Of a stretch of 64,000 nucleotides of DNA, positions 972-59,085 are shown one piece after another. The stretch comes from Spirochaetota bacterium (GTDB taxonomy: Bacteria; Spirochaetota; UBA4802; JAGODF01). The stretch spans positions 99,672 through 163,671 of the forward strand of contig JARKUF010000038.1 of assembly GCA_029974015.1 (NCBI GenBank), written 5' to 3'. Position 1 is the stretch's first letter; each line of letters opens with the position of its first letter. The notes under the pieces were generated by a model. That model had not been told where the DNA came from and made no database searches. It worked only from the letters and a program-made list of their open reading frames with translations. A program made the translations under genes and the position numbers.

Positions 972-1052
972 GGCAACCTCATCATAATTAGGTTTCTCCG
1001 CCAACCTTCGGCGGGCGGAAAAACCTAAATGCTGGATTATTGAGGTTCCCAT
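972..1052. repeat. Dispersed intergenic stem-loop element, copy 1 (GGTTTCTCCGCC...CTTCGG...GGCGGAAAAACC) with outer inverted GG-AACCTCA/TGAGGTT-CC arms
   Basis: Inverted repeat read directly; same core as copies at 5.1, 12.8, 14.2, 34.1, 42.2 and 43.1 kb. Confidence 0.8.
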
Positions 1053-1091
1053 TAACTTTTCCACACGTTCACACCGGTATTTGGAGCAATT

Positions 1092-1463
1092 ATGCGGCTG
1101 ACGGTATCGACGGCATTTTCGGGACCCGTGCTTTTCATGGTGCTGGCCCTGGGCGTTGCCATAAAGCCCCCTCTCTACGCCGACAGGCATTCCGAGGCGG
1201 AAGTAAAAAAATACCTCACCGATGTCGAATTGGAGCTCTCCGACATGATACAGGAAGGGGCCGAAAATCACGCCCCAAGGGAAATTGCGCGGGCCCGGGA
1301 TTATGTGGCCGCCGCGAAAAAGATGCTTGGCGATGAAGAGCGTGATCTCGCGTATTACGAGCTCAATAAGGCGGCGGCCCATTTCCGCCTTATTGAGGCG
1401 CTTCGCCGGATGGTCCACGCCGAACTCGACCTGGAACAGTCGCTAAAAAGCGCGGGAAAGTGA
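1092..1463 (+). CDS. Secreted small helical protein, DUF4398-like
   Basis: Signal peptide then ARDYVAAAKKMLGDEERDLAYYELNKAAAHFRLIEALRRMVHAE; adjacent to an OmpA-like protein of similar style. Confidence 0.5.
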   Translation: MRLTVSTAFSGPVLFMVLALGVAIKPPLYADRHSEAEVKKYLTDVELELSDMIQEGAENHAPREIARARDYVAAAKKMLGDEERDLAYYELNKAAAHFRLIEALRRMVHAELDLEQSLKSAGK

Positions 1464-1485
1464 GCCCACGCCACGGAGACTTTCC

Positions 1486-2243
1486 ATGAGAATGCGCCAA
1501 TTCATCCTCGCCCTGACCTTCGTCTCCTTGATGCCATTCCCCCTTTTCGCGGCCAGCAGGTCCGAAGCGAAGTCCCACATCGAAGCCGCCCGGAAGGCCA
1601 TGGAACCCATCGAGGGCAATGAAGAGCTAAAACCCCATATTCCTTACAGAAATTACTACGACGCCAGGGTGTACCTCGATACCGCCCAGTACCAGTTCTC
1701 CGAAGAGAGGGACTATTCCAACGCCTCCTACTTCGCGGTAATGGCCCTCGTGGAAACGGAAACGACACTGGCCATTGCGAGAACAAGGCTAGCACAGCAC
1801 AGAAAGCTTCAAGTCGAACGAGACATCTTTAAGGAGATGTCCGACGCGTCGAACCTCCGCTCCCGCCTTCGCGGGGCCCTCGTTTCATCGGGACTGTATA
1901 AAGCCGGGGGCCCCTATCGGCGCGTCTTCCTCGATTCACAGCTCTTTACCAGAGGCTCATTCCAACTCTCGGAAGAAGGGACTGCGCTTCTTGGGAAAAT
2001 CGCGTCGGTCATGGCCCTGGCCCCCCGAAGCACCCTCACCGTTATCGGGCATACTCGGTACGCCGACATCGGCAACCAGATGTCCTCCATGAAGGCCGGG
2101 GCGGTGGCTGAACACATAAAATCCCTGAGAGGCATCGCCCCGCCAGGGTCACCTCCAAGGGGGCCGGCGATTCCGAGGAAGAGGCCATCGGCGGAGAAAT
2201 GCGGAAGTCCGACAGAATTGAGATCAGAGTCAACGGCCTGTAG
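1486..2243 (+). pseudogene. OmpA-like/DUF4398-type protein with apparent -1 frameshift in a C run near 2138-2141
   Basis: Track ORF reads into a low-quality tail (GIAPPGSPPRGPAIP...). Adding one C to the CCCC run restores ...SLRGIAPARVTSKGAGDSEEEAIGGEMRKSDRIEIRVNGL*, a typical OmpA-domain end, stop at 2241-2243. Confidence 0.75.
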
Positions 2244-4323
2244 GGGAGCCGGGGGCAATGTCAAGTATTATCATCCGCGGCGAGGTCCTTCCGTTGTATG
2301 TTGAATTCTCGAGCCTGTACACGATGTGGGCCCTTCCGGAGGCGGCGATGGATTCCATCCTGTCCCCCATTCCCCACCCCAGCGCCTCCAGCTCGTGATT
2401 GTCCCGAAACAGATACTTTCCATGCCGCTTGTCCGCACCGATGCGCGTGAAGCTCCTGATTGCCGCGTCCCTTGTGAGAAACACCGGTTCCTCGTTCCCG
2501 CTCCCGCACGGCTCCACAACCTTTAGGTCCTCCACCAGAACCGGCGTGATCTCCACGACGTCGAGTACACCGTCAACTTCGATAGCGCGGGGTTCAAGTT
2601 CCCCTCCGGACACGGCATCAACGAGGGCGTCGCGGACGGCCTCGAGGCAGTCCTGCCGGACCGTGAACCCGAAGGCGTGGGCATGGCCTCCGATCTTTTC
2701 AAAGAGATGCGAAAGGGGCTCCACCCGGGAAAAAAAATCCATTGCCCCACGGACCCTGCCGCTTCCCTTAAGAAACATCTGCCCCTCCTGACGCGATACG
2801 ACCACGACGGGTTTGTTGACAGCGTCGGTAATCCTGTTGGCAATGAGGCCCGTCACCCCATCGGGGGCTTCGACGACCGCAAAGACCAGGGGGCCCGAAA
2901 CATCCATATCGCCGCACCCTATCCGCTCCATGATCCTTTCGCAGTGCTCCGCAACGATGCTTTTTCTCATGGCATTGAGGCGGTTGATCTCCTCCATGAG
3001 GCCCCGTATATCGTTCTCTAACCTGCCCTTCTCCTCCATGTCCTTTTCTTCTCCCTGGAGAAGAAACTCCGCGGTGTAATCGGTTTTCCCCATCCTACCC
3101 GGGGCGTTGAGCACCGGCGCCATGTGCCATCCGATCAATCTGCTGTTGACCGGCCTCCCATTGATGAGCATGGACAGCCCTGCATGCCCGGTGTTATCCA
3201 GGGACTCTATGCCATGGCGGACCAGGATCCGATTTTCCCCCGACAGGGGCACGATGTCAGCAATGGACCCCAGCGCGACGAGGCCCATGACCGAGCGGTT
3301 GAAGTCGATGATCTTCGGGGACTTGCGGCGCTGGATTTCATTGAACACGGCCAGTGTGAACTCAATCCCGTCCCGGGCAACTTCAGGGCAGATGGAAAAT
3401 TCCTCCATGACCTTTACGTCGCTTAAGTCGACGCCCTTCCCCTTCAAGATGGCGCGGACCTCCCCGGCAAGATCGTATACTCTGGGACCGGGGCAGAGTG
3501 CGGCGAGCCTCTCCTGAGCGACGGGGCAACGGTACACCGCGATGAAATCCGCCCCCTGTGACGCCTCCGTTAGGGCCGCCCCGTCGAGGCCGTTCCATCG
3601 CCGTGTCACCATGCCGTTCACGACCGATGCGGCGCTAAAGCTCCCCTCCTCTCCGGACACCAGGAGAAAAGTCCTGCCGTAACTGGGCAGATAACTCAGG
3701 AGCACGGCATGGCAAAGTTTAAAAGCGACGCCCACGCCGGCAAGGTCTTTGAAAGGATATGGGCAGTCCGCACGCATGGGATTTATAATGAGGGCCTCCG
3801 GAAGCCCCTCTCCGGGCTCGTGGTGGTCGCAGACAATCACGTCCAGGCCCTTCCCCTTCGCCAGGGAGATTTCGTCGATGTCCCGGACCCCGCAGTCGAG
3901 AGTGATGAGGAGTGAGGCCCCGGCGGCGGCGAACTCGCCTATCACCTGCGCGGTGAGCCCATAGTTTTCCCCGTTTCTGGGATACCGGACGCGAATACGC
4001 AATTCCGGGGCCAATTTCTTCAACAGGGTCACCACGGTGGTGAGGGACGTAAGGCCGTCAAGATCGGAATCGGAGAAGATGGCGACGGTTTCCCGGCGCT
4101 CCACGGCGAGGCGGATGCGCCGTACCGCCCGGTCCATGTCCCGCATAAGAAAAGGGCTGTGAAGGCGGGAAAGGGCGGGATGAAGGAAGTGGAAAGCTTC
4201 GACGGGTTCGGACAGGCCGCGGCCCGCCAGGACCGATGACAGGACCCCTCCTATGGAAAGAGAGCGGGATATCCTTTCCACCGCATCAGAGTCCACGGGA
4301 CTTACGGACCACTCACGGGTCAT
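2230..4323 (-). CDS. recJ: Single-stranded-DNA-specific exonuclease RecJ (DHH family)
   Basis: 697 aa; FSDSDLDGLTS, LLITLDCGVRDIDEI, VIVCDHHEPGEGLP, DLAGVGVAFKL, GGHAHAFGFTV motifs. Confidence 0.88.
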   Translation of the reverse strand: MTREWSVSPVDSDAVERISRSLSIGGVLSSVLAGRGLSEPVEAFHFLHPALSRLHSPFLMRDMDRAVRRIRLAVERRETVAIFSDSDLDGLTSLTTVVTLLKKLAPELRIRVRYPRNGENYGLTAQVIGEFAAAGASLLITLDCGVRDIDEISLAKGKGLDVIVCDHHEPGEGLPEALIINPMRADCPYPFKDLAGVGVAFKLCHAVLLSYLPSYGRTFLLVSGEEGSFSAASVVNGMVTRRWNGLDGAALTEASQGADFIAVYRCPVAQERLAALCPGPRVYDLAGEVRAILKGKGVDLSDVKVMEEFSICPEVARDGIEFTLAVFNEIQRRKSPKIIDFNRSVMGLVALGSIADIVPLSGENRILVRHGIESLDNTGHAGLSMLINGRPVNSRLIGWHMAPVLNAPGRMGKTDYTAEFLLQGEEKDMEEKGRLENDIRGLMEEINRLNAMRKSIVAEHCERIMERIGCGDMDVSGPLVFAVVEAPDGVTGLIANRITDAVNKPVVVVSRQEGQMFLKGSGRVRGAMDFFSRVEPLSHLFEKIGGHAHAFGFTVRQDCLEAVRDALVDAVSGGELEPRAIEVDGVLDVVEITPVLVEDLKVVEPCGSGNEEPVFLTRDAAIRSFTRIGADKRHGKYLFRDNHELEALGWGMGDRMESIAASGRAHIVYRLENSTYNGRTSPRMIILDIAPGSPTGR

Positions 4324-4994
4324 TCCAAACCCCGTCTTTCGGCGGCCTTCTTGGCGAGATAATCGGCCTTGTCGTTGAGGTTCCTCGTCACATGCTCCAA
4401 TTTCACCGATGGAAGGCCCCGGAGAATGTCCATTACGCTCTCATAGAGGGGCCTGATGTTCTCATTTTTCACCCTGTACTGTCCGTTGATCTGCTTTACC
4501 ACGAGCTCGGAGTCGGTGCGGATCCGCACGTTTTTCGCTTTGAAATAAGCCGCAATGCGCAGGGCCCGGATTACAGCGGTGTATTCGGCATAATTATTGG
4601 TCTGCACTCCAAGATATTGCGACACCTTGCCCACCTGACGGTTCTGGGCGTCATATATGACGATCCCAATACCGGCGTGGCCCGGGTTCCCGCTGGAAGC
4701 GCCGTCGGTATAGATGGTAAGGACGGCCCCAAGGGGAATTGCGGTAAACTCGGCACCGTTGAAAATTTCATCATCAACGGCATCGCGGGCACCCTCGGAG
4801 CTTTCGCGGGAGCGGCTTTTTTTGATGATGATTTTTTTTTTCGCCCTGGGCTTTTCATACTTCATGACGATATCCAGGGCCTCCTCGATGATGGCCCTCA
4901 CGTCACCGGCCTCCACTTCGGCGGATTCCGCGATTTTTTCGACCGATTTGCCCTCGGCCAGCATTTTCAGCACTCTTTCGATGTTCAACAGCAT
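4320..4994 (-). CDS. RNase HI family protein with N-terminal helical extension
   Basis: YTDGASSGNPGHAGIGIVIYD, NNYAEYTAVIRAL, IRTDSELVVKQINGQYRVK, HVTRNLNDKADYLAKKA. Confidence 0.92.
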   Translation of the reverse strand: MLLNIERVLKMLAEGKSVEKIAESAEVEAGDVRAIIEEALDIVMKYEKPRAKKKIIIKKSRSRESSEGARDAVDDEIFNGAEFTAIPLGAVLTIYTDGASSGNPGHAGIGIVIYDAQNRQVGKVSQYLGVQTNNYAEYTAVIRALRIAAYFKAKNVRIRTDSELVVKQINGQYRVKNENIRPLYESVMDILRGLPSVKLEHVTRNLNDKADYLAKKAAERRGLE

Positions 4995-5016
4995 TTTATC
5001 GTCCCTGGTTTAATAT

Positions 5017-5140
5017 AGGGAACCTTAAAAAAATTAAATTTTTTAAAATTCCCATTATTCGTAACTACCGGCATACTCAGGGCTCAGGTTTTCCGCCAGC
5101 CGAAGGCGGGCGGAAAACCTGATTATTTGAGGTTGCCCAT
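5017..5140. repeat. Dispersed intergenic stem-loop element, copy 2 (full form with AT-rich hairpin and GTAACTACCGGCATACTCAGG module)
   Basis: GGTTTTCCGCCAGCCGAAGGCGGGCGGAAAACC inverted repeat; module shared with 12.8, 34.1 and 42.2 kb. Confidence 0.85.
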
Positions 5141-5184
5141 AGTCACCGGGGCCGCCCCGCGAGGGCGCCCCGGGAAGGCCTGCG

Positions 5185-5889
5185 TCAACCCTCCACGCAG
5201 ATGAACCTTCCGCAGTTGGTGCAGTTCATTATTTTTTCACCACGCCCCGCCTCCATGACGATGTGGACCGGGATGGCGGTATGGCATACGCTGCAGGTGT
5301 TTTCCTCAAGCCTGGTGATGGCCTTTCCCTCCTTTGAGGAAATGATCTTCCGGAATTTGGACCGAAGGTCCGCCGAAAGGTCGTTAATCCGTACATCGAA
5401 GCGCTGCAGTTGCTTTTCGGCGCCGGACTCCATCTCCTTTTGTTTCGCCGTGAGGGTCTCAATATCGGCGGCCTCCTGGGCCTTTATGGCAGCGAGGTCC
5501 CTTTCCTTCCCGGCGAGCTCGTTTTCCATGGCCGATGCTGCGTCCATATCGTTGAGGGTGGCCTCCTCCAGAGCGTCCCGGGCTTCAGCGGCAAGCGCGT
5601 ACTCATGCTCCAGGGCGGCCATTTCTTTTTCCGTTTTGATGAGCCCCCGGCGTTCGTCCAGCCTTTTCATCAGACCTTCCTTTTCAGAAAGGTCCAGCTC
5701 CTTCTCTTTAATTGAAGCCTGTAGGCGCAAAAGGCCCTCCTTCGCGGCGGCGGCCTCCTTCTCGGCCTTCGCGGCCTTTTCCCGCCAGTAGGCGATTGAC
5801 TTCACGCACCTTTCCCCTTCATCCCGGAACTCGATCATCCTGTCCCAAATCGACTGAAGGTCAATCATTATGCTGATATTGCCGTTCAT
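5185..5889 (-). CDS. C4-type zinc-ribbon coiled-coil protein (CT398/DUF164-like)
   Basis: Long coiled coil then CSVCHTAIPVHIVMEAGRGEKIMNCTNCGRFIC. Confidence 0.9.
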   Translation of the reverse strand: MNGNISIMIDLQSIWDRMIEFRDEGERCVKSIAYWREKAAKAEKEAAAAKEGLLRLQASIKEKELDLSEKEGLMKRLDERRGLIKTEKEMAALEHEYALAAEARDALEEATLNDMDAASAMENELAGKERDLAAIKAQEAADIETLTAKQKEMESGAEKQLQRFDVRINDLSADLRSKFRKIISSKEGKAITRLEENTCSVCHTAIPVHIVMEAGRGEKIMNCTNCGRFICVEG

Positions 5890-5939
5890 AGAACCTGCAC
5901 CTTATTTGCAATCTGACAAATTTTCTTCCCGTTCCATGT

Positions 5940-8654
5940 CTACATGTCCTTCATTATTGAAAGGACGTTTTTAAGGTTCTGAAGCTCATCTCCATACTTT
6001 GCCCAGTTCCCCTCACGCTGGTATTTTTCCGCCTGCATGACATGATAATACGCTTTTTTCGCATAAGCCTCCAGGGTCTGTTTTTCCCCGTCCCCACGGT
6101 ACATGGAATCGCGGAAATAGCGGCGTTCGTAAAAAAGGCTCGAAAGCGCGGATTCGAGGTCAGGCTCCATGGCCAGGCGGTCCGCAAATGAGACAAATAC
6201 CCGGCGGAGTTCCGGCATCTCGCCGGTTTCCGCTTTCTGGTACAGGGGTTCAATCATGAGGAGGGATTCCTCGATGGGAATGGCGAGCATATTGCCCCGA
6301 ATGACGTCCGATCCCTTCCGGCTCCAGAGGGCAAGCTGTTTCGATATTTCCGGGTCCTGATTGATCCTGGCCTCCACCTGCATGGGCCCATAGCTCAGCC
6401 TGTCCTTAGGAAGGGTGTGGAGAGTGAGCTTTCCATAATGGGGGAAATCGCATTTCGCCGTTAGAAATGCCACCATATTATCTCTCCGAATTGGCGTAAA
6501 GGGGATGATGAGGATGAACTCGCTACGCTCTTCCTTTGGAAGCTTCGTCACCAGATAATAGCTGTGTACTACATCTTCCCGCCCTTCGAAGATCTGGCGG
6601 GCGAACGCCCAGGCGTCCTCATTGTTGTAAAAAACGTTGACGCTTTTCATGTGATACCGCAGGAGGACATGGCTCTGGATGTTGAAAAGGTCCTCTGGGT
6701 AGCGCACGTGGGCCCTCAGCTCTTCGGGCATGTCGGAGAGGGGACGGAAGAGCCCCGGAAACATGCGGGAGTACGTGGCGGCCATGGGGTCCCCGGGGTC
6801 GCTGATGTAGAAACTCATAGTGCCTTCGTAGGCATCAATGAGGACCTTCACGGAATTCCGGATATAGTTGATGCGCTTGCCTCCCTCCAGGGTAACGGGG
6901 GTGGAATATGGGAAGTGGTCGGTAACGGCGTATGCGTCCATCATCCAATATAATTTTCCACCGCAAACGACAAGGTACGGGTCGTTGTCGAAATCAAGGA
7001 AGGGGGCCATGGTCCTGGCCATCTGGACGATATTGCGCCGAAAGAGAACCCTGCTTTCGGAGGTAATACTCCCGGAAATCAGGATGTTGATATTGCGAAA
7101 AGCCACGCTGAACATTGCCCTTTTGATGAATGAAGAAAGCGCCACCCCTCCCTTTCCGTCGTAGCGGGTGAATTTATTGTCGGAACCGGATGGATAATCG
7201 AATTCGCCGGGCTGGATGGCGGTATTCACGATAACATAAGGGTTGTTATGCTCGCCGTAATAGACCGCGGGCCTCTCGACGGGGATGGAGACTGCGCTTC
7301 TGGGAGGTATGTCCTTGATGATAAACTCGGGCATTCCTTCGGGAGTCGCCCTGTCCACGCGGCTCATGACCATGCCGTAGCCGTGGGTGTAGATGAGATG
7401 CTGATTGATCCATGACCGGCCCAGGGCCCCCAGGTTTTGGCTCGAAAGCTCGCGGGCCGAGAGGTTCACGGCGACCTTCCTGCCGTCGATCATATAGCGG
7501 TCCACATCCACATCGTTAAAGTAGTAGTAGGGTTTCAGTTCCTGAAGCTGCCGGTAGGAGCTTTTCAGGGGCCGCCAATCCCAGAGTCGGATGTTCTCCA
7601 GGGTGTTCCGGTTTTTCACAATGTCCCGGTACGTGAGGTTGGGACTGTTGGGAAAGTCTTTTTCCTCCACATTGTCCAGGCCATAAGCGATGCGGGTAAA
7701 ACGGATGTTGTGGCCGATATAGGGGCCCTCCCGGTCGAGCTCGTTGGGCTCCACGGCGAAGCGCTGCTGCAGGGAAGGATACACGGTCCCGAGGAGGAAA
7801 TACGCCGGCACCAGAGTGAGGAGCACCACGAGGAGGAGCTTAAAGCTCCGTTTCACGATATTGGACAAGAGCAGCGCCGCGGCGATGAAGGAGATGACCA
7901 TGCAGACATTGTAGGCCAAAAGCCGCGCGTGAAGGTCGGTATATCCTGCGCCGAAAAATTTCGCACGCTCGTTGAACAGAAGCGTGTAGGCCGAAAGCCG
8001 GTATCCGATGCCGTGTAGCAGGACGATGAAGGCCGCCAGGGAGGAGAGATGGGCCCGGGCAAAAAGCGAAAGCTTAACCCCCCCTTCTCCCACGGCAATC
8101 CCGCCGTTTACCAGGTGGAAAAGGGCCGAGAAAACGAGTATCATCGCCAGGGAGATAAAGAGCCAGTGGTAGAGAAAGCTATAAAAGGGGAGCGAAAAGA
8201 CGTAGAAACCCATATCATTGCCGAACACGGGGTCTGCAGGGAAACCCGTGAAAGGCGAAGCGTGTACGAACATTAATAGTTCTTTCCAGTAGGCCGAGGC
8301 CCCCATGGCCATAAAAGCCCCGAAGACCGTCACTCCCAGGGCAATCATGATAAAAAGGGCGCGCCGTGGCGTTCCGAAAAGCGGCACTTTAATCCTATCG
8401 AGAATGTTGCGCGAGAAAATCCTGCCGGAACCTCCTATCAACCTGATGAGGAGAAAATTGAGGGAAAACAGGGCCACAAAAAGAAGAAAAAAAACCGCAG
8501 CGGCGTAGAACTTTCCGTAAAACAGCGTCCAAAAAACGTTCAATCGATTATAACTTGAAAACCATTGAACGTCCACGTAAAAACCTGCCATGGATTGGAC
8601 AAGGAAATAGGCAAGGATGAAGATTACAATACCAGTTATCGCTTTTCTTCCCAT
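5940..8654 (-). CDS. UPF0182 family membrane protein
   Basis: 904 aa; N-terminal TM helices; YTHGYGMVMSRVDRATPEGMPEFIIKDIPP, PAVYYGEHNNPYVIVNTAIQPGEFDYPSGSDN, YPEDLFNIQSHVLLRYHM. Confidence 0.93.
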   Translation of the reverse strand: MGRKAITGIVIFILAYFLVQSMAGFYVDVQWFSSYNRLNVFWTLFYGKFYAAAVFFLLFVALFSLNFLLIRLIGGSGRIFSRNILDRIKVPLFGTPRRALFIMIALGVTVFGAFMAMGASAYWKELLMFVHASPFTGFPADPVFGNDMGFYVFSLPFYSFLYHWLFISLAMILVFSALFHLVNGGIAVGEGGVKLSLFARAHLSSLAAFIVLLHGIGYRLSAYTLLFNERAKFFGAGYTDLHARLLAYNVCMVISFIAAALLLSNIVKRSFKLLLVVLLTLVPAYFLLGTVYPSLQQRFAVEPNELDREGPYIGHNIRFTRIAYGLDNVEEKDFPNSPNLTYRDIVKNRNTLENIRLWDWRPLKSSYRQLQELKPYYYFNDVDVDRYMIDGRKVAVNLSARELSSQNLGALGRSWINQHLIYTHGYGMVMSRVDRATPEGMPEFIIKDIPPRSAVSIPVERPAVYYGEHNNPYVIVNTAIQPGEFDYPSGSDNKFTRYDGKGGVALSSFIKRAMFSVAFRNINILISGSITSESRVLFRRNIVQMARTMAPFLDFDNDPYLVVCGGKLYWMMDAYAVTDHFPYSTPVTLEGGKRINYIRNSVKVLIDAYEGTMSFYISDPGDPMAATYSRMFPGLFRPLSDMPEELRAHVRYPEDLFNIQSHVLLRYHMKSVNVFYNNEDAWAFARQIFEGREDVVHSYYLVTKLPKEERSEFILIIPFTPIRRDNMVAFLTAKCDFPHYGKLTLHTLPKDRLSYGPMQVEARINQDPEISKQLALWSRKGSDVIRGNMLAIPIEESLLMIEPLYQKAETGEMPELRRVFVSFADRLAMEPDLESALSSLFYERRYFRDSMYRGDGEKQTLEAYAKKAYYHVMQAEKYQREGNWAKYGDELQNLKNVLSIMKDM

Positions 8655-8681
8655 TGTTCCCCCCGAAGGGCCTTCATTCCG

Positions 8682-12770: not shown

Positions 12771-12862
12771 GGGGACCTCAAAATATTAAAGGGGCCCCAA
12801 AAAATGTAACTACTGGCAAAATCAGAGCTTCGGTTTTTCCGCACGCCTTCGGCGGGCGGGGC
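12771..12862. repeat. Dispersed intergenic stem-loop element, copy 3
   Basis: GTAACTACTGGCAAAATCAGAGCTTCGG...CCGCACGCCTTCGGCGGGCGGGG. Confidence 0.75.
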
Positions 12863-14180: not shown

Positions 14181-14323
14181 AAATCTCAAGATTTAGTCTT
14201 CCCCGCCCGCCAATGGCGGGCGGGGAAACGTAAATCTTGTGACTACTCTTTGCTTTCCCCGCCAGCCTTCGGCGGGCGGGGAAATAAAGTTTTAGAGACT
14301 GCCTTAATTTTTAGAGATTCCCA
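14181..14323. repeat. Two dispersed stem-loop elements in tandem (copies 4a/4b) in a divergent promoter region
   Basis: TTCCCCGCCCGCCAATGGCGGGCGGGGAAA and TTTCCCCGCCAGCCTTCGGCGGGCGGGGAAA separated by GTGACTACTCTTT. Confidence 0.85.
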
Positions 14324-19328: not shown

Positions 19329-19417
19329 TGGGGCCTTTAATAAAGGGTAGTCACTATAATTTGGTTTCCCCTCCCGCTGAAGGCGGGCGGGGAAACCAAA
19401 TTATTAGAGGGAGCCAT
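19329..19417. repeat. Dispersed intergenic stem-loop element, copy 5 (divergent promoter region)
   Basis: GGGTAGTCACTATAATTTGGTTTCCCCTCCCGCTGAAGGCGGGCGGGGAAACCAAATTATT. Confidence 0.85.
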
Positions 19418-22222: not shown

Positions 22223-22227
22223 AAAAA

Positions 22228-22604
22228 GCGGAGGGGACCGTAAGCCGAATTCTGTTTAGGCGGCTATTCATCTTGCATGGACGTCGCCGCCCATGTCTTT
22301 GCAACCTACCCGCAGCCTCGGACGGACCACCCTCAAACGGCTGCATACTTGGTTTTGCACCGGGTGTGGTTTGCCTTGCCCCCGCCATTACTGACGGGGC
22401 GGTGAGCTCTTACCTCGCCATTTCACCCTTACCGCCGTATGCACGCGGGCATGCCCGCGTGCATACGGGCGGCGGTATATTTTCTGTTGCACTTTCAGTC
22501 GCCTCGCGGCGCCCGGACGTTATCCGGCACCCTGTCCTGCGGTGTTCGGACTTTCCTCGCTGTCCGCCTGTGGCGGACCGGCGCAGCCGCCCGGTCCCCT
22601 CCGC
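22228..22604 (-). ncRNA. rnpB: RNase P RNA (bacterial class A)
   Basis: Minus strand: GAGGAAAGTCCGAACACCGCAGGACAGGGTGCCGGATAACGTCC, AAAGTGCAACAGAAAATATACCGCC, GGTAAGGGTGAAATGGCGAGGTAAGAGCTCACCG, AGATGAATAGCCGCC..ACAGAATTCGGCTTA; ends pair (GCGGAGGGGACCG/CGGTCCCCTCCGC). Confidence 0.96.
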
Positions 22605-22693: not shown

Positions 22694-22697
22694 ATGC

Positions 22698-22776
22698 GGT
22701 CACAATAATCAGGTTTCCCCATGCCTCGGCGCCCCGTCCTGTAAATGAGGGGCACCGAGGCATGGGTGACTATTGC
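22698..22776. repeat. Divergent copy of the dispersed stem-loop element
   Basis: AATCAGGTTTCCCCATGCCTCGGCGCCCC...GGGGCACCGAGGCATGGGTGACTATTGC. Confidence 0.6.
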
Positions 22777-22777
22777 A

Positions 22778-23472: not shown

Positions 23473-23603
23473 TTAGAACCTCGAAAACTTATGTTTTTCC
23501 TCCTGAGTATGACAGCAGTTCCAATTTATGGGGCCTCGAAAAATATATTTTTTTGAGGTCTCACACGAGTTTTTGTGACTGCCCTTAACTTTTAGAGCCC
23601 CCC
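23473..23603. repeat. Degenerate copy of the dispersed element lacking the GC hairpin, module in reverse orientation
   Basis: TCCTGAGTATGACAGCAGTT (cf. reverse complement of the GTAACTACCGGCATACTCAGG module), GTTTTTGTGACTGCCCTTAACTTTTAGAG. Confidence 0.5.
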
Positions 23604-24743: not shown

Positions 24744-25136
24744 TTAAACCTCCAGTAATTTAATGCCGAGTTTCCGCGCGGCATTGTATAATTTATTATC
24801 AAGTGTCAAGATGAAAGAATTGCTTTGCATGGCACAATCTAGTATATAGGCATCATAGGCGTAGATGTTCGCAGTTCTGGATAACTTGAGTGCATTTGAG
24901 AAGTTCGTTTCAATATACCGTAATGGAATTCCGTTGAATATTGAAATTCCTTTCTGGGCTTCCTTGAGCGTAATTCTGTTCCTTTTAAACATGGCAGAAA
25001 ATGCGTTCCCAATTTCATAGGGAACAGAACCGGGCGCTATCAGCGTGTTCCCTGCGGTCAATTCTACAATTGTTTCACGCACGGTTTCGCCGACAAGGAC
25101 CGCAATGAGCGCAGAGGTGTCGATGGTTATATTCAT
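24744..25136 (-). CDS. PIN-domain ribonuclease toxin (VapC-like)
   Basis: MNITIDTSALIAVLVGE, VPYEIGNAF, ANIYAYDAYILDCAMQSNSFILTLDNKL; PIN acidic residues. Confidence 0.88.
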   Translation of the reverse strand: MNITIDTSALIAVLVGETVRETIVELTAGNTLIAPGSVPYEIGNAFSAMFKRNRITLKEAQKGISIFNGIPLRYIETNFSNALKLSRTANIYAYDAYILDCAMQSNSFILTLDNKLYNAARKLGIKLLEV

Positions 25137-25151: not shown

Positions 25152-25195
25152 TAATGCACAAATGTACATTTGTACAAATGTACATTTGTGCATTA
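25152..25195. promoter_or_regulatory. 44 bp perfect palindrome upstream of the toxin; probable autoregulatory operator
   Basis: TAATGCACAAATGTACATTTGTACAAATGTACATTTGTGCATTA equals its own reverse complement; two tandem ACAAATGTACATTTGT units; 16 bp upstream of the toxin ATG. Confidence 0.85.
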
Positions 25196-25712: not shown

Positions 25713-25790
25713 ATTAAACAATTGGCTTTTCCATCTTTCTAAAGACGGGGAAATAACCTGATTTTTCTGACTGCCCTTAGTTTTAAAGGT
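25713..25790. repeat. Possible degenerate copy of the dispersed element
   Basis: GGCTTTTCCATCTTTCTAAAGACGGGGAAATAACCTGATTTTTCTGACTGCCCTTAGTTTTAAAGG. Confidence 0.4.
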
Positions 25791-26555: not shown

Positions 26556-28429
26556 ATCGAGTAGGAGGGGGCGGCTAACCCCCGTCCTCTCACACCACCG
26601 TACGTACGGGTCCGTATACGGCGGCTCACCAGCCTTGACGAAGCTTCGGATATAGTTTCAACAGATCAATCAATCCAAGATTTTCCCAGAACGAGTTATT
26701 GAGCGCCTTTTGAATTGACAACATCTTCGTCATTTGCCAATCCTTCTTGCTTGAATTGCCGGCCATATAGGCAAGGTCCTTATCCACACCCAGACTGATC
26801 AGTTTCCGCACTTTTGTTCTTGGACGCTTCCATTGTTGCCAGATGCATAGCCGCATTCTACGGCGTATCCATCCGGACAGGGCTCCAAGAACCGACGGAC
26901 TGTCGGTCAACGCGTAATAACCAAGCCATCCGCGGAGGTAGCGGTTCAGGAGTTTCACCCGTTCTTCCGTGGGTATCGGCCAGGACGGGTTTGTAATCTT
27001 CCTTATCCTGTCCTTAAACCGTTTAAGCGATTGTCGGGATATTGTGATATCCACGCCATACCCCAGTATCATAAAGGTGAACCCGAGAAATTTCCTCACC
27101 GTAGGATGCCCCACGGCACTCTTCTTTCGGTTGACCTTTAGTTTCAATCGCTTTTCAAGAAAACGAGTAATGCTCTCCATGACACGCTCCCCGGATTACC
27201 TCGACCTCACATAAATGTTGCAGTCGTCGGCGTACCGGCAAAACTTGTGGCCACGCTTTTCCAACTCCTTGTCCAGTTCATCGAGCATGATATTAGCCAG
27301 AAGGGGGCTTAAGGGGCTTCCCTGCGGCGTTCCTTCCTTGCTTGCCACGCGTACTCCCTCCACCATGATTCCCGCCTGAAGGTATCTTCGGATCAATTTC
27401 AGAAGCCTTTTGTCCGTTACCTTTCGGGCTATAAGACTCATGAGGATGTCGTGGTTGACCCGGTCGAAGAACTTCTCAAGATCGATATCCACCACCACGT
27501 AGTGGCCTTCCTCGATGTAATTCCTGGACTGCCTCACCGCCTGATGCGCACTTCTTCCCGGCCTGAATCCATAACTTGATTCGGAAAATCCGGGATCGAA
27601 AATAGGCGTGAGCACCTGTAGTATGGCCTGCTGGATAAATCGGTCGATCGCATTTGGTATCCCGAGAATTCGTTCTCCACCGTCCGGTTTGGGTATCGTC
27701 ACCCTGCGCACCGCAGAAGGAACATATGTTCCTGAGATAATCCGCTCTTTAGCCGACGACCAATGGGTTTTCAGATACTTTCCGAGGTTCTTTGCCGTCA
27801 CTCCATCAGGCCCGGCCGCTCCACCGTTCGCTTTGACGCGCTTGTAGGCAGCTCTCAGATTCTCGGTCTCAAGCATCTGTTCCAGCAAATCCATTACCAT
27901 TCCTCTTACTCCGCGAGATTTCCTCGGTTCTTGCCGCTTCGGCCTCTGCTACCGTCCTTTGATATCCGGCTTCACCTTCATCGCCGGGCGGCGGTTACCC
28001 TTTCGGCTCTCATTGACCGACTGCGAAATTGCCGTCTCCATCTCTTGACTGATGTTCGGCCCTTCATCCCGGTTTCCCGAAACTACTATGGCCTCTGCTG
28101 ACTTCTGCAGGGTCAGCGGAGCCTCGCGACTCCGATTACTTCCTGTGGAAGCCTCCCTGCAGACCTCCCGGGGTAAGTCAACCTGCCTCCGTCACACTCC
28201 TGCCGAATATACACCACGGCCTCTTGATGGATATGGACTTTGCAGTCAAGCGCCCGCTCGTCCAGACCGTAATGCCTCAAATCCGGTTTTTGTACATCAG
28301 GTCATGACTTTGCTAGCCACTTCCTTCAGATTCCGCCTCGCGGCGGACAGCTCGTGGTTCGCCAACCTTCACCTCCATCAGGTTGGTTCGAGACTTTAAC
28401 TCTTAAGCCGGTTGACATGCCCGGCACAC
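26556..28429 (-). mobile_element. Group II intron (approximate ends), intron-encoded RT without an evident endonuclease domain; class C-like by impression
   Basis: RT/maturase ORF; minus-strand domain V-like GAGCCGCCGTATACGGACCCGTACGTACGGTGGTGTGAGAGG and domain VI GGGGGTTAGCCGCCCCCTCCTACTCGAT; 5' end GTGTGCCGGGCATG. Confidence 0.8.
26626..27900 (-). pseudogene. ltrA: Group II intron reverse transcriptase/maturase interrupted by an in-frame TAA at 27196-27198
   Basis: Two track ORFs are in the same frame: ...CRYADDCNIYVRSR*SGERVMESITRFLEKRLKLKVNRKKSAV...; RT motifs GIPNAIDRFIQQAI, SSYGFRPGRSAHQAV, GTPQGSPLSPLLANIML, YADD. Confidence 0.9.
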
Positions 28430-34083: not shown

Positions 34084-34195
34084 GGGAACTCCTAAAAAAT
34101 TAAATTTTTGGGGTTCGCACGATGTGTAAATACCGGCATACTCAGGACTCAGGCTTTCCCGCCAGCCGAAGGAGGGCGGGAAAACTTGAATTAGA
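34084..34195. repeat. Dispersed intergenic stem-loop element, full form
   Basis: GTAAATACCGGCATACTCAGGACTCAGG CTTTCCCGCCAGCCGAAGGAGGGCGGGAAAAC. Confidence 0.85.
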
Positions 34196-34285
34196 ATCCG
34201 CCTGTACTAATCCGCAAACCCGCAGGGTATCTGCGCACATAATGTATGTCCGACACCCCGGGAATGGGTTACACTTTTTTTTCCG

Positions 34286-42118: not shown

Positions 42119-42262
42119 GGCAACCTCAAAGTATTATGGGACCCTCTAAAAATTAAATTTTTGAGTTTCCCAAAAAATGTAACTACTGGCATAACTCAGG
42201 ACTTAGGATTTCCCGCCCGTCGAAGGCGGGCGGGAAATCCTATTTATTAGAAGATACCTTAT
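42119..42262. repeat. Dispersed intergenic stem-loop element, full form (divergent promoter region)
   Basis: GTAACTACTGGCATAACTCAGGACTTAGG ATTTCCCGCCCGTCGAAGGCGGGCGGGAAAT; preceding AAAAATTAAATTTTT hairpin. Confidence 0.88.
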
Positions 42263-43107: not shown

Positions 43108-43183
43108 AGGCAAACCTTAATGCTCATGCTTTCCCGCCCGCCGAAGGCGGGCGGGAAAGCATGGTTTTTGTGACTACCCTTTA
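43108..43183. repeat. Dispersed intergenic stem-loop element
   Basis: CATGCTTTCCCGCCCGCCGAAGGCGGGCGGGAAAGCATG then TTTTTGTGACTACCCTTTA. Confidence 0.88.
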
Positions 43184-45820: not shown

Positions 45821-45911
45821 CCCCGCGGCGCGTCTTTACCGCACTGCCCGGGCTTTCCCTAATCTCTTGACATCCCTTCCCGCCTTTTCTACTATTGGAA
45901 ACCTGTAATAT

Positions 45912-45948
45912 CAGGGTTGGCCCGCCCAAGGCGGGCGGGACAACCCGG
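45912..45948. repeat. Short copy of the dispersed GC stem-loop
   Basis: AGGGTTGGCCCGCCCAAGGCGGGCGGGACAACCC. Confidence 0.6.
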
Positions 45949-45971
45949 GCGGTAACATATTCCCGGGTCTG

Positions 45972-52793: not shown

Positions 52794-54045
52794 TATTCTT
52801 TCCCGCCGGGACGGTAACGACCACTGCCTCCACGGCCCTCTCCGTGGCTTCTTTGATCAGGAAACGGAAACCTTCTATACGAAAGCTTTCACCTCTTTCG
52901 GGGATCCTGCCTAAATGCCAGGTTATAAACCCCGCCAGGGTCTCGAAGCCCTGCTTCTCCATGTGGAAACCGAACTTGTACTGGAAATACTCGATATCGA
53001 TTTCCCCCATGACGAGGAAGCGCCGGTTCTGGAGGGGCCTAATGAGGTCCGACCTGGGATGGTCCCGCGTCTGTATCTCCCCCACGACCTCCTCGACGAT
53101 ATCCTCTGTTGTGACCAGTCCTTCCACGCCGCCAAATTCGTTCACCGCGAAAAGGATCCTCACCCTCCTCTCCTGCATCTCGAGGAAGAGCTCGTCGATC
53201 CGCTTCGTGGAAGGCACAAAGTGGGGCTTCCGCAGCACGTCGTCTATCCGCGTGACGCCCTTCTTTTCGATGATATCGCGGTAATATACATACCCCACAA
53301 TATTGTCGACCCGCCCCTCGTAAACCGGAATACGGCTGAAGCGCGTACTGCCCACGAGCTCCACCAGGCTTTTCAGGGACGCTCCCCTGTCGATGGCGGT
53401 CATGTCGATGGTGGGGGTCATGATCTCCCGCACCGTGATGGTGTGGAGGTTCATGATTTCGTCCACATACTCCTGGTGCTTCTTTCTGATGACCCCCTCG
53501 CTCTTCCCCAGGCTGAAGAGCATTTCGATCTCGTCCCTGAACTTCACCATGCTCCTGTCCCTGTCGCCAATATCCAGGAAGCGCTTCAGGCGGGAAGTCA
53601 CCGCGAGGGACAGGGCCGTCAGGGGATAGAGCAGTTTGTGAAGAACAAGAATTGCCCGGGAGTAGGAAAGGACCATTTCATCGGCATAGTTGCGGGCGAT
53701 CACCTTGGGAAGAATTTCACATGCCACGAGGAAAAACACCGTCTGGACCGCCGTGATGGCCAGGATCCTGGAGTCCGTGAGGACCAGATATTTTGCGGCG
53801 ATGAAAGTGACAAAAGAGGCGGAGGCGATAGTGACGATATTGTTCCCGATGAGGGCCATGCCGATGGTGTTTTCCATGTCCTGTATTATCGTCACGGCCC
53901 TCTTCGCCTTCGCGTTGCCCTGGTCCGCCAGGGCGCGAAGGCGGATAAGGTTCGCGGATATCACCGCCGTCTCCATGGAAGAGAAGAAGAAGGAGAGAAG
54001 AATGAATAAGAAGATGAATGTTTCATAGAGATAGTACATGCGCAC
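52786..54045 (-). CDS. CNNM/CBS-domain transporter-associated protein (HlyC/CorC family)
   Basis: DUF21 membrane domain; VREIMTPTIDMTAID; FAVNEFGGVEGLVTTEDIVEEVVGEI. Confidence 0.93.
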   Translation of the reverse strand: MRMYYLYETFIFLFILLSFFFSSMETAVISANLIRLRALADQGNAKAKRAVTIIQDMENTIGMALIGNNIVTIASASFVTFIAAKYLVLTDSRILAITAVQTVFFLVACEILPKVIARNYADEMVLSYSRAILVLHKLLYPLTALSLAVTSRLKRFLDIGDRDRSMVKFRDEIEMLFSLGKSEGVIRKKHQEYVDEIMNLHTITVREIMTPTIDMTAIDRGASLKSLVELVGSTRFSRIPVYEGRVDNIVGYVYYRDIIEKKGVTRIDDVLRKPHFVPSTKRIDELFLEMQERRVRILFAVNEFGGVEGLVTTEDIVEEVVGEIQTRDHPRSDLIRPLQNRRFLVMGEIDIEYFQYKFGFHMEKQGFETLAGFITWHLGRIPERGESFRIEGFRFLIKEATERAVEAVVVTVPAGKNIS

Positions 54046-54047
54046 TT

Positions 54048-55292
54048 TTACCTTTTCGTAACTTCGACGGTTCCTATTCTGTTCTTCCTTACGGTCCGGA
54101 CCCTTATGATGTGCCGGGCCGTGACGATTTCGTCCCCCTTCCCCGGGAGCCGCTCCAACTTTTCTATGATATACCCCCCCACTGTCTCCGACTCCAGGCT
54201 TTCCAGTGCCTCGCCGAAGGCCACATTGAAATCGTCAATCTGCATGTCCCCGGAGACGACGGCCCTGTCGCCCATGGTTTTCCGCACGCCGGGTTTATAC
54301 ACCTCCTCCCAGGCGTACTCCTTGCCGATGATTTCCGAAATGATGGTGCCCAGGGTCACCACGCCCGCGGTGCCGCCGTACTCGTCCACCACAATTGCGA
54401 TCTGTATCTTTTTTCTGAGGAAATCGGAGAGAAGTTCATCAAGCTTTTTGGTGCCCGGATAGTGGGTAATAGACAGAAGAAAGCGGTCGATGTTCTTCGC
54501 CTTCCGGTATCCCTTCGCGAAGGGCAAAAGCTCCCGGGCATCCAGGACCCCCACGATATTGTCGATATCGCCATCATACACCGGAAGCCTCACCGCACCG
54601 GAAGCCCGAAAAACCTTCATAGCCCCCCGGACCGACGTCCCCAGGGGAAGGAAAACCGCTTTGGTCCTCGGCACCATCACATTCTGCGCTTCCTTACGCG
54701 AAAAGCGAAGGACGTTTTTGATGAAATCCCCCTCTTCCTTATTGAGGACCCCCTCTATCTCCCCGAGTCGCACGGCCATGTCGAGCTCCTCCGGTGTAAC
54801 GGAAACCCTGGCATCGAGGCTTATGTTGAAAAAACCTGAAAGCCTGTCGATGAAAAGGACCAGGAGATGGCGCAGGGGGATGAAGAGGAAATGGAAAAAC
54901 CGAAGGAGGGGAACGGCCCTCCGCGAAATCACAATATTATTGTTGATCGCAACAATTTTGGGCGAGATCTCGCAAAGGATGATGATGACGGGGGTCATCA
55001 CGGCGATCGATATGAAATGTCCGTAGGCCTCCGACACGGAGAGCATGAGCTTGGTAGCGATTGCCGACGATACGAGGTTCACGAAAAGGTTCCCGATAAG
55101 GATGGTGACGAGAATATGCCGGGGCGAACTCATAACCCCGGCGATGTAGTTTTCCCGCGCGCTTTTGGAATGGTGGAATTTGTGGAGGTCGGACTTGCTC
55201 AGGGAAAAGAGGGCCGTTTCGGCGCCGGAAAAGAAGCCCGACAGAACCAGGCAAAAGAAGAGCATCGTATAATCGAGAAAACCGCCGCCCAT
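54048..55292 (-). CDS. CNNM/CBS-domain transporter-associated protein, paralogue of the preceding call
   Basis: SGFFSGAETALFSLSKSDL; AQNVMVPRTKAVFLP; IVVDEYGGTAGVVTLGTIISEIIG. Confidence 0.93.
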   Translation of the reverse strand: MGGGFLDYTMLFFCLVLSGFFSGAETALFSLSKSDLHKFHHSKSARENYIAGVMSSPRHILVTILIGNLFVNLVSSAIATKLMLSVSEAYGHFISIAVMTPVIIILCEISPKIVAINNNIVISRRAVPLLRFFHFLFIPLRHLLVLFIDRLSGFFNISLDARVSVTPEELDMAVRLGEIEGVLNKEEGDFIKNVLRFSRKEAQNVMVPRTKAVFLPLGTSVRGAMKVFRASGAVRLPVYDGDIDNIVGVLDARELLPFAKGYRKAKNIDRFLLSITHYPGTKKLDELLSDFLRKKIQIAIVVDEYGGTAGVVTLGTIISEIIGKEYAWEEVYKPGVRKTMGDRAVVSGDMQIDDFNVAFGEALESLESETVGGYIIEKLERLPGKGDEIVTARHIIRVRTVRKNRIGTVEVTKR

Positions 55293-55323
55293 CGGACCAA
55301 TCGGATATCTTGAGAACTATTCC

Positions 55324-56208
55324 TTACTTGAGATCGAGATTGACCATGAAGGCCAGTTCGCTTTCCATTTTATTGCCCGCGAAGTCGAAGGCGGTGACTT
55401 TAAGCCTGTTTTCCCCTTCGACGTACCTGGCTCCGGCTACCCGGTAATGGCCCTTCTCGTCAAAAAGATCCTCTGCCTCTTTTCCCATGACTGTCAAGAC
55501 GTTTTTCCTGGAACAGATTTCTTTGAATTCCGCATCGAGGACCTTGCGGCCATTGAGCTCCACGGTCAATTTGTACACGCCGAGCCTCTCCCGCCCGGAA
55601 ACCGTGTCGGCAATCTCCAGAAGCAGGGGATAGTGCCGGGTGAGGCGGTAGTTGACCTTGCCCCGGATGGGGACGTATGTGTCGCCGATGCGAAGATAGG
55701 TCCCCTTGTGCACCGGCGGCCGCTCGTCCTTCACGGGGGGGAGAACGGTCAGGGGATTGAGGGACGCGCCCTCCTTCAGTTTAAGAAGCGTAAAATGGAG
55801 ATGGCGGGCCATGGAGTGCCCCGTATTTCCCATAACGCCCAGAACGTCCCCTTGGGCAAAGGCAGTCTTGAAGGACGGATCGTCGTCCAGATGGCCGTAT
55901 ATTCCAAAGAGGCCTTTCCCGTGGTCCACCACCTTGAAGTTGCCCATACCCGGATATCTGTCCAGAGGGAAATGGGCCCTGTTCCAATGGTACACGACCC
56001 TTCCCGATGTGACGGGAAAGATTTTTAAATCCGGCGAAATGACGTCCATCCCGTCGTGGAAATGGTCCCATCGGGACTCGCCGAAGGTTGACGTCACCGT
56101 CGCGTTGTCAACGGGCCACCGGAAGGATGCCGTCGCCAGGGCGAGAATCGCCATGCCTGCGGCGATGGACAGCCCTCCGGGCCTGTTCCCTTCACCTTGT
56201 CTGTTCAT
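55324..56208 (-). CDS. M23-family peptidoglycan metallopeptidase-like protein
   Basis: STFGESRWDHFHDGMDVISPD, VVDHGKGLFGIYGHLDDDP, GNTGHSMARHLHFTLLK. Confidence 0.88.
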   Translation of the reverse strand: MNRQGEGNRPGGLSIAAGMAILALATASFRWPVDNATVTSTFGESRWDHFHDGMDVISPDLKIFPVTSGRVVYHWNRAHFPLDRYPGMGNFKVVDHGKGLFGIYGHLDDDPSFKTAFAQGDVLGVMGNTGHSMARHLHFTLLKLKEGASLNPLTVLPPVKDERPPVHKGTYLRIGDTYVPIRGKVNYRLTRHYPLLLEIADTVSGRERLGVYKLTVELNGRKVLDAEFKEICSRKNVLTVMGKEAEDLFDEKGHYRVAGARYVEGENRLKVTAFDFAGNKMESELAFMVNLDLK

Positions 56209-58507
56209 CTTTCCTGTCCTCCTCTTCCCGTACCGCCGGGGCCTTGTGGATGTCGCAGTATTCCCCCGGCTCGGTGCCGGCATAGAAGACTTCGTCCTTC
56301 ACGATGTTCTTGCACACTCCCTCGTCCCTGGGCACAAGCCCCGATTCGAGGCAGATGGTCTGGCGAGCCACGCCTTCCTCGGGGACCTTGAAATCGCCCG
56401 GGGACTGGTCTCGGTAAATCTGGGATATGAAATTAATCCATATAGGTGCGGCGATGACCGCCGCCGCCTGGCCCTCTCCAAGGGAGATTGCCCCCTGCTT
56501 GTTGCCTATCCATATGGCGGTTACAAGGTCCGCCGTGTAGCCCACCACCCAGGCGTCGTTGAAGTTCGAAGTGGTGCCTGTTTTCCCGGCGATGGGGAAA
56601 GGAAGGTTTCTCCGCGATACGGTAAAGTGGGCGGTCCCCTCGGGCTGGAAAACTCCTTTCATTATCGACACCATGACCGCGCATGCTATGGGATCGATGA
56701 TCTTTCCATACTGCGCCCGCTTGCGTTCAATCTCCTCCCTGACTTCGTCCTCGTGGTTCCATACCACATTGCCCTGGTAGTCCTTAACGGTTTTTATGCC
56801 ATAGGGTTTCACGTAATCCCCGCCATTGGCAATCACGGAGTGCAGGATACAGCCCTCCAGGGGAGATATTTCATAGGCCCCCAGAGCCAGGGAAAGGGTC
56901 CTGCCGAAACGCTGGTTTAATTCGCCGTCATCAAGGTCGAGGCTTTTTCTTAGAATGTCGAAAATCCGGGAATAGCCGGTCTTGTCGAGGATGCGGACCG
57001 CCACGACATTGAGGGACTTCGCCAGGGCGAAGTGCACCGTCACGTCGCCGTAATAGCGGCCGCCATAGTTTTTCGGGGAATATCCTCCTTCAAAGGTGTC
57101 CCGTTCGTCCTTAAACCTCGTCGAGGGAGTGATATCCCTGGCCTCCAGGGCGGCCACGTAGATGATCGGCTTGAACGACGAACCGGGCTGTCGGCGTATC
57201 TGGGAGACATGGTCGTGCTGGTTTGTCGATGTGAAGCTGTACCCCCCCACATAGGAGATAATTTCCCCCGAGTATGGGTCCATTGCCACCAGGGCCCCCT
57301 GGATGTCCTCAACATCGACCTTCTTCTTTCCGCCATACCGCTTTTTATACACGTCCCTCTGGCGCTTCACCCCGTCCTTGAGGGACTTCAGGGCCACGTC
57401 CTGTTTCTTTCCGTCTATGGTGGTGTACACCTGGAGGCCTCCGCGCTTCACGGCCTCCTCGCCGAACTTCTCCACGAGCACGCGCCGTATCTGCTCGTTG
57501 AAAAATGGCGCCCTGTTTATGCGATACGCGCTGTATATGAAACTCCCGATGAGGGAGCCGGACGCCCTCCCCCGCTCGTTGAAAGTGACGTTCCACTTGG
57601 TGAGGAACCTGCGCATCTGATAATCCGCCCTCGCCTTCTGAAGATACCCGGCATCTATCATTGACTGGAGGATACGGCGAGTTTTTTTGATGGAGTTATC
57701 GAGGTTGGTCAGCGGTGAATAAACCAGGGGATTGGAAATGGCGGCCACCACCATGGCGCACTCAACTTCTCCCAGGGAACTCACGGGCTGCCCGAAGAAC
57801 ATCTTCGCCGTGGCTTCCACGCCATAAGAACCATTGCCGAAGTAAATCAGGTTCAGATACATAAGGAGGATGTCGGCCTTGTCGTACCGCTCTTCAATTT
57901 CCATGGCGCAGAAGGCTTCGTAGATTTTTCGTTTCAGGGTCCGCTCCATGTCGGTAAAAAGGACCTTCGCCAACTGCTGGGTTATGGTGCTCCCTCCCTG
58001 TACGATCCGAAAATTCACAAGGTTCACCAGGAGGGCCCGGAAAATTCCCCGGGGATTGACGCCCCGGTGATTGTAAAATTCACGGTCCTCGCTGGCAATC
58101 ACGGCCTTGATGAGGAACTTCGGGATTTGGCCATAAGGCACAATTTCCCGCTTCTGTTCGAAAAATTCCCCTATGATTTCGTTGTTACGGTCGTAGATAC
58201 GGGTGGGAATGTCCACCGCGTGGGCCGTCACCTCCACGTCCTTCGAGGAGAAGGTCATTCCCCGGCGGATTTCCTCGGTCCTGTCGATGAGGCGCTTGTA
58301 CCGCGCGAGTTTGTGAAGGGCTTCAGAGCGGTCTCCTCGCCAGCTCAGGTATATCACGGATATGTAGGCCGAGAGGAGAAATGCCGCTCCGAGGGGGACA
58401 TAGATGAAGACGATTTTCTTATGGCTTCCTATCCATGAGAATACGCCCTTGAGAAAACCCATGAGGAAGCCTGCCGCCGCCTTGATGTAATGTTTCAGAC
58501 TCTGCAT
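56192..58507 (-). CDS. mrcA: Penicillin-binding protein 1A (GT51 glycosyltransferase plus transpeptidase)
   Basis: AVIASEDREFYNHRGVNPRGIFRALLVN, GGSTITQQLAKVLF, RRQPGSSFKPIIYVAALE, GKTGTTSNFNDAWVVGYT. Confidence 0.95.
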   Translation of the reverse strand: MQSLKHYIKAAAGFLMGFLKGVFSWIGSHKKIVFIYVPLGAAFLLSAYISVIYLSWRGDRSEALHKLARYKRLIDRTEEIRRGMTFSSKDVEVTAHAVDIPTRIYDRNNEIIGEFFEQKREIVPYGQIPKFLIKAVIASEDREFYNHRGVNPRGIFRALLVNLVNFRIVQGGSTITQQLAKVLFTDMERTLKRKIYEAFCAMEIEERYDKADILLMYLNLIYFGNGSYGVEATAKMFFGQPVSSLGEVECAMVVAAISNPLVYSPLTNLDNSIKKTRRILQSMIDAGYLQKARADYQMRRFLTKWNVTFNERGRASGSLIGSFIYSAYRINRAPFFNEQIRRVLVEKFGEEAVKRGGLQVYTTIDGKKQDVALKSLKDGVKRQRDVYKKRYGGKKKVDVEDIQGALVAMDPYSGEIISYVGGYSFTSTNQHDHVSQIRRQPGSSFKPIIYVAALEARDITPSTRFKDERDTFEGGYSPKNYGGRYYGDVTVHFALAKSLNVVAVRILDKTGYSRIFDILRKSLDLDDGELNQRFGRTLSLALGAYEISPLEGCILHSVIANGGDYVKPYGIKTVKDYQGNVVWNHEDEVREEIERKRAQYGKIIDPIACAVMVSIMKGVFQPEGTAHFTVSRRNLPFPIAGKTGTTSNFNDAWVVGYTADLVTAIWIGNKQGAISLGEGQAAAVIAAPIWINFISQIYRDQSPGDFKVPEEGVARQTICLESGLVPRDEGVCKNIVKDEVFYAGTEPGEYCDIHKAPAVREEEDRKDEQTR

Positions 58508-58756
58508 TCGGGCTTAATTCCATAAAAACATGAGAAGATATCACCCTTATCTATGGGGAGTAAATTTTTCAATTACTTTTATAATGCGGAAAAAAGATCG
58601 TGGATTTTAGCGCCCCCCAACCCCCCGTATACTGGGGCATTATATATGTGTATACAATATTCTGAGCAGTGGCCACTGATGGGCGGGAGTAACACGGTGG
58701 AATTAATGAAACCGGTATGATGATAGGGGGGCTGGATTAAGTCATACGGAGGGCAA

Positions 58757-58940
58757 TGTCATTCCGGCTGGAGCGTAGCGGAATGCCGGAATCTATTATG
58801 CCTTTGAGTAAAAAGCGAATTTTTAGTGGTTCCCTTATGTGAGAATTTTTCATGAGATTCCTGCATGCGCAGGAATGACAAAGGGCATGCGGCGCGCAAT
58901 GTCATTCCGGCTGGAGCGCAGCGGAATGCTGGAATCCAAT
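58757..58940. repeat. Two copies of a GTCATTCCGGCTGGAGCGYAGCGGAATGCYGGAATC repeat
   Basis: Copies at about 58759-58795 and 58901-58938, each preceded by GCAATGTCATTCC. Confidence 0.85.
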
Positions 58941-59017
58941 AAGGAACGGAATTTGAGTATGCTTTGCGGCATGCGTTGCGCGCCACCGCGCAGTTCGTGT
59001 TATGACTCCTTAGAAGC

Positions 59018-59085
59018 ACAGTATTCATGGTTCCCCTCTCTCCGAAGGGGGGTGGTAAAATCTTATTTTAGAGACCGCATTCAAC
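59018..59085. repeat. Degenerate dispersed stem-loop element
   Basis: GGTTCCCCTCTCTCCGAAGGGGGGTGGTAAAATCTTATTTTAGAGACCGCATTCAAC; tail matches TTTTAGAGACTGCCTTAA at 14.29 kb. Confidence 0.55.

Follow-up and report, generated by a model that had tools for sequence, protein, structure and literature searches.

The window, that is, the whole 64,000-nt stretch analysed here (contig C44:99672-163671), belongs to a 3.26-Mb draft genome of 48 contigs. Scattered along it are GC-rich hairpins, which are members of a genome-wide, dispersed mobile element of about 120 bp without coding capacity (Table 1). A profile of this element has 11 matches in the window, at 972, 5018, 12771, 14183, 14248, 19347, 23501, 34085, 42138, 43109 and 59000. 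The recurring GC stem is found where the first-pass annotation had placed it; allowing for one mismatch, GGTTTCCCGCC occurs 14 times, against 2.8 expected. Among the copies that it had called degenerate, those at 23.5 and 59.0 kb were retrieved by the profile; those at 25.7 and 22.7 kb, as well as the copy at 45.9 kb, were recognised by eye only, and the one at 22.7 kb is weak.

Table 1. Copies of the element and a related solo end in the window (positions within the window)
Feature	Position	Strand	Basis
Full-length element (121 bp), TTAT flanks at 42134-42137 and 42259-42262	42138..42258	-	Profile 1-120, E 1.5e-31; flanks from sequence
Full-length 120-bp element	5018..5137	-	Profile 1-120, E 2.4e-29
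Near full-length element, left end diverged	34084..34202	-	Profile 10-119 at 34085-34193, E 3e-24; ends from sequence
Element without left end	12771..12860	-	Profile 25-120
Short form, hairpin A between GGCAACCTC and GAGGTTCCC	972..1050	+	Profile 1-64, E 3e-11; sequence
Short form, mixed ends GGGTAGTCAC (type 2) and AGAGGGAGCC (type 1)	19345..19415	.	Profile, sequence
Short form, mixed ends GGCAAACC (type 1) and GTGACTACCC (type 2)	43109..43179	+	Profile, sequence
Short copy 1 of adjoining pair, termini partly missing	14183..14242	.	Profile, sequence
Short copy 2 of adjoining pair	14239..14304	.	Profile, sequence
Type-2 element, hairpin A deleted; ends GTTTTTGTGACTGCCC, then TTAA	23475..23584	+	Profile 58-118 at 23501-23561; sequence
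Degenerate copy, type-2 right end CTGACTGCCC	25723..25776	+	Sequence
Short degenerate palindromic copy	45897..45964	.	Sequence
Degenerate short copy	59000..59077	-	Profile 7-81, E 5.7e-5
Doubtful degenerate copy (GCGGTCACAATAATCAGGTTTCCCC ... GGGTGACTATTGC)	22697..22777	.	Sequence only
Solo right end, IS type: TAAAAAGCGAATTTTTAGTGGTTCCC, then TTAT; resembles the end beside the transposase remnant	58809..58834	+	Sequence, profile

The full unit reads GGCAACCTCTAATAATTAGG TTTTCCCGCCCGCC TTC GGCGGGCGGGAAAA CCTAAGTCCTGAGTATGCC AGTAGTTACAATTTAT GGGAACCTCAAAAATTTAATTTTTAGAGGTTCCC, with hairpin A (the GC stem), a linker and hairpin B following one another between inverted ends. The terminal inverted repeats of this type-1 element, GGCAACCTCTAA and TTAGAGGTTCCC, are complementary at 11 of the 12 consensus positions. 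The palindrome of hairpin A closes on a 3-nt loop, UUC or GAA. Many loops had been read as CUUCGG; this string is out of register with the stem, and a UUCG tetraloop was therefore rejected. The linker is the GTAACTACYGGCATACTCAGG module, i.e. GTAACTACYGG read on the opposite strand, and hairpin B is the AAAATTAAATTTT hairpin, which itself contains TTAA. Both had been noted before and are real, as parts of one unit. GTGACTACCC/GTGACTGCCC, in contrast, represents terminal inverted repeats of a second type and no separate module. The corresponding second element type, 142 bp where complete, has the same interior and the ends GGGCAGTCACAAAAAC...GTTTTTGTGACTGCCC. In the short forms, only hairpin A is present; several of them, for example at 19.3 and 43.1 kb in the window, combine both end types.

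The family is not limited to the window. In the whole 3.26-Mb genome, the GC core of hairpin A has 357 matches with at most two mismatches (185 + 172), as compared to 0 + 1 for a reversed control. Because the core with a TTC loop differs from that with a GAA loop orientation at three positions, no single core enters both strand counts. A profile built from 23 full copies, run on 462 kb, yielded 112 non-overlapping copies or fragments, 89 of them in contig C29 and the window, the subset not picked for density. Extrapolated from this subset, the whole genome carries about 800 copies and fragments, making up about 2.2% of its sequence. The element thus has the properties of a MITE: it is short, non-coding, uniform in length (118-121 bp) and present in many copies, with at least 357 GC-core matches. 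At the gathering threshold, an Rfam search of the copies returned no match to any described family, and a literature search, as a limited test, found no description of this element family.

Traces of transposition are clear. Exact 4-bp duplications flank 38 of 85 full copies from the window's genome and from G016, the MAG Spirochaetes bacterium ADurb.BinA120, against 3.8 expected and a maximum of 10 in 1000 shuffles. In the same 85 copies, there were no duplications at 5 bp, and those at 3 bp were at chance level. Frequent targets are TTAT, TTAA and ATAA. At locus L102, one element sits within hairpin B of another, with TTAA duplicated: TTTAA / GGGCAG...CTCCCC / TTAATTTTTAGAGG, or AAAATTTAA / GGGCAGTCGC...GGACTCCCC / TTAATTTTTAGAGG, with the slashes marking the junctions. 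Once one TTAA is removed, the consensus of the host element is regained, which makes this locus a natural empty site. It is the only one, as a site-by-site comparison with the congener gave no result because its intergenic DNA is too diverged. Together, the 4-bp duplications and the nested empty site identify the element as a MITE mobilised by a DDE-type transposase, and not as a REP/RAYT element or a terminator. Three further copies (L211, L050 and L035) also adjoin or sit within the ends of other elements. From these four loci we infer that the modular, nested and mixed-end copies were produced by elements inserting in one another, with self-insertion at TTAA as the likely source of the modular look.

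The first-pass annotation had invoked an unseen transposase, and shared ends and a gene remnant now identify its family as IS5. A DDE_Tnp_1 search has a single match in the window's genome, the C-terminal remnant of an IS5-type transposase at C34:133466. Between its stop codon and AATTTTTAGAGGTTCCC, the exact right end of the element, there are 137 bp; ATAA follows this end. In the alignment, the last ~50 residues of the remnant closely match the transposase of an intact IS5-family IS in the same genus (genome G001, locus L141), which was retrieved by a protein search of the order. This transposase has 339 aa and matches NF033581 (IS5) at 257 bits, with a cut-off of 140. The ends of the IS, GGGAACCTCTAAAAATTAA and AATTTTTAGAGGTTCCG (GGGAACCTCTAAAAATT), are bordered by TTAA on both sides and share 17-19 nt with the element, the first 19 nt being the element's right end. 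Past these first 17-19 bp the two differ, and a simple internal deletion of a known IS does not account for the element. Two other genomes carry related insertion sequences. In G009, the left end of an IS5-family IS, GGGCGGTCACAAAAACTCAG, resembles the type-2 end. In G035, an IS5-family IS with TTAA flanks is accompanied by a MITE of that genome, which also consists of two hairpins, ends in GGGCACCTCTAAAAATTAG, is flanked by TTAT and has another core in its hairpin A. This indicates that the architecture is common to different families, with the core replaced. Other candidates were rejected: single-ended copies in G034/G035 have no adjoining transposase ORF that would make them autonomous elements, and two other DDE loci (L125 and L126, in G016 and G035) have ends unrelated to those of the element.

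An IS5-family transposase almost certainly mobilised the element; the transposase gene itself is here reduced to a fragment. An IS5-derived MITE, moved by a transposase supplied by an IS whose copy in this genome has since decayed, is very probably the best explanation of the family. The transposase, formerly provided by such an IS, would have bound the GGCAACCTCTAA and TTAGAGGTTCCC ends, which match those of an IS5-family IS, acting on them in trans, and would have placed copies in AT-rich targets of 4 bp (TTAT, TTAA, ATAA and similar), each of which was duplicated in the process. Most surviving insertions lie between genes. Because hairpin B contains TTAA, elements could land within one another and give rise to the nested, mixed-end copies. 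The parent IS is by now decayed in this genome. No intact parent was found in either of the two high-copy genomes, the window's genome and ADurb.BinA120, both of which are drafts.

The distribution among relatives is patchy. A covariance model has at least 150 matches in the window's genome and 70 in ADurb.BinA120, which belongs to another Spirochaetota family and was also the sole match in an exact-pattern scan of named genomes. In the congener and the two other members of the family, this model has no match; matches elsewhere are weak, and those in G128 and G183 (E 4e-4 to 8e-4) may be due to chance. The congener with the intact IS thus carries no element copies. This pattern suggests a spread between families by horizontal transfer or, as the data do not separate the two, repeated loss.

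The surroundings of the copies bear on two other readings. All copies had been described as intergenic; according to a crude ORF map this holds for most, about 85%, against 13% expected at random. That they are intrinsic terminators, amplified by chance or convergence, is extremely improbable. A GC stem followed by T-rich DNA and the position of some copies downstream of genes would fit terminators. However, of the 94 intergenic copies whose neighbours were classified, 41 are flanked by tandem, 41 (43%) by divergent and only 12 by convergent genes, and the orientation relative to tandem genes is random (21 vs 20). Both observations contradict terminators, as the first-pass annotation had already argued from divergent copies. 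Furthermore, the 120-bp unit carries target duplications and is absent from the congener. The first-pass proposal of a REP/MITE-like family held for the MITE part, given the duplications and inverted ends. A REP/BIME-like element, spread through single-stranded hairpins by a RAYT (Y1 tyrosine transposase), would also be palindromic, intergenic and of high copy number, and a Y1_Tnp gene is present in the window's genome and in three relatives. Nevertheless, this origin is highly improbable: the ten Y1 genes in these four genomes have neither an element nor an element end within ~1.5 kb, Y1 enzymes do not make the clear 4-bp duplications and terminal inverted repeats seen here, and the foot of the hairpin has no GTAG or CGTC tag, the only GTAG of the consensus being in the linker, 11 nt from hairpin B.

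The two arms of the stem change together, as had been observed before, and this covariation is genuine. In hairpin A, the covariation score and the cells paired exceed those of all 500 shuffles and of all slid controls. The covariation is, however, specific to hairpin A and lacks the usual RNA pattern. Among closely similar copies, compared in 16 disjoint pairs, both arms of hairpin A have changed with Watson-Crick pairing preserved in 18 cases, and one arm alone in 12; the corresponding figures for hairpin B are none and 24. The copies L162 and L165, for instance, have a single difference in the 81 positions outside the stem, yet three compensated pairs within it are changed. TTC loops occur in 47 copies and GAA loops in 20, intermediates being few, and the loop changes at least 16 times on a rough tree built without hairpin A.

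A transcribed and selected structured RNA, such as a regulatory RNA or an mRNA stabiliser, that also dispersed could account for the very stable fold (z -10.8), the covariation and the well-kept GC core. We consider it improbable, since gene orientation is random, no Rfam family matches, and both-arm changes are confined to hairpin A and arise between near-identical copies. Moreover, G-U pairs are not favoured over A-C in hairpin A (34 vs 45), although hairpin B leans to G-U (66 vs 42). Beyond the pairing itself, the transcribed element put forward in the first-pass annotation found no support. For the both-arm changes and loop inversions of hairpin A, template switching or module conversion is a better fit than selection on RNA, and an explanation at the level of DNA is the simpler one. 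Homogenised arms together with an inverted spacer have been published as the hallmark of template switching between inverted repeats (PMC8604942), a process by which stems can be kept up in the absence of compensatory selection (PMC8794818). Concerted evolution of hairpin A may thus proceed without RNA selection: template switching inside the palindrome, or whole-hairpin conversion from other copies, would rewrite both arms simultaneously and flip the loop; we hold this tentatively, at slightly less than even chances. For template switching, likely is as far as we go, because whole-hairpin conversion between copies is also possible.

MITEs with IS5-type ends are known, and other bacterial MITEs are about as numerous; instructive in the present family is its mutational pattern. 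Archaeal IS5-derived MITEs are likewise small and non-coding with IS5-type terminal inverted repeats, for example the ISMma12-related one, listed with 140 bp, 24 copies, a 16-bp IR and a 3-bp duplication (PMC3852290 Table 4). In contrast, the present family has ~800 copies, a two-hairpin interior, a 4-bp duplication and a Spirochaetota host. The Correia element of Neisseria, ERIC (up to 711 copies reported) and other bacterial MITEs are also palindromic, intergenic, present in hundreds of copies and presumably moved in trans (PMC10969869), but their sequences are unrelated, and here the parent family could be traced via ends and a remnant. With REP/RAYT and the GTAG- and CGTC-tagged repeats (PMC3733652) the element shares intergenic palindromes with alternative complementary stem residues; unlike them, it has target duplications and neither tag nor RAYT linkage. 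In hairpins maintained by template switching (PMC8794818, PMC8604942), both arms change and the loop (spacer) of the inverted repeats is flipped as well, whereas the changes seen here are among paralogues of a single mobile element within a single genome.

This study describes, in an uncultured Spirochaetota lineage, a MITE family of very high copy number whose IS5 parent can be traced. It also shows that RNA discovery by covariation can be fooled by mobile DNA hairpins. Hundreds of paralogous palindromes permit both-arm and one-arm mutations to be counted directly, a question raised for RNA hairpins in PMC8794818. If template switching is indeed at work, the ~800 copies would form a natural archive of such mutations.

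The reverse transcriptase/maturase of the group II intron is split into two separate open reading frames (RVT_1 and GIIM), and the intron is therefore probably broken. A perfect palindrome, TAATGCACAAATGTACATTTGT/ACAAATGTACATTTGTGCATTA, lies beside a PIN-domain gene and is a candidate operator of a toxin-antitoxin operon. A solo IS-type right end sits between two copies of a repeat (CAATGTCATTCCGGCTGGAGCG...GGAATGC.GGAATC), which are 88% alike and spaced by 143 bp.

Features of the window
Feature	Position	Strand	Remarks
RNase P RNA	22226-22602	-	Bacterial class A, ordinary
PIN-domain gene	24747-25136	-	Palindrome immediately upstream
Palindrome	25152-25195		44 bp
Group II intron	26556-28347	-	Rfam D1-D4 parts, domain V
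GIIM	26629-27180		
RVT_1	27199-27900		
Repeat, two copies	58743-58798, 58886-58941		~56 bp, distinct from MITE family
IS-type right end	58809-58834	+	

Related elements were observed in two other genomes. In G034, three loci (L097, L100, L112) are longer composite elements: after the GGGCACCTCTATAAATTAG end come a GTGATCACAAAAAC...GTTTTTGTG palindrome and a further hairpin. These may be nested or cargo-bearing forms. Five loci in G035 (L084, L088, L090, L092, L094) make up an independent two-hairpin MITE family. This family shares its ends and TTAT targets with that of the window, yet its hairpin A core differs and it has a GTGCCCACAAGGGAAC junction. The two-hairpin MITE architecture is retained even as its core is exchanged for another.
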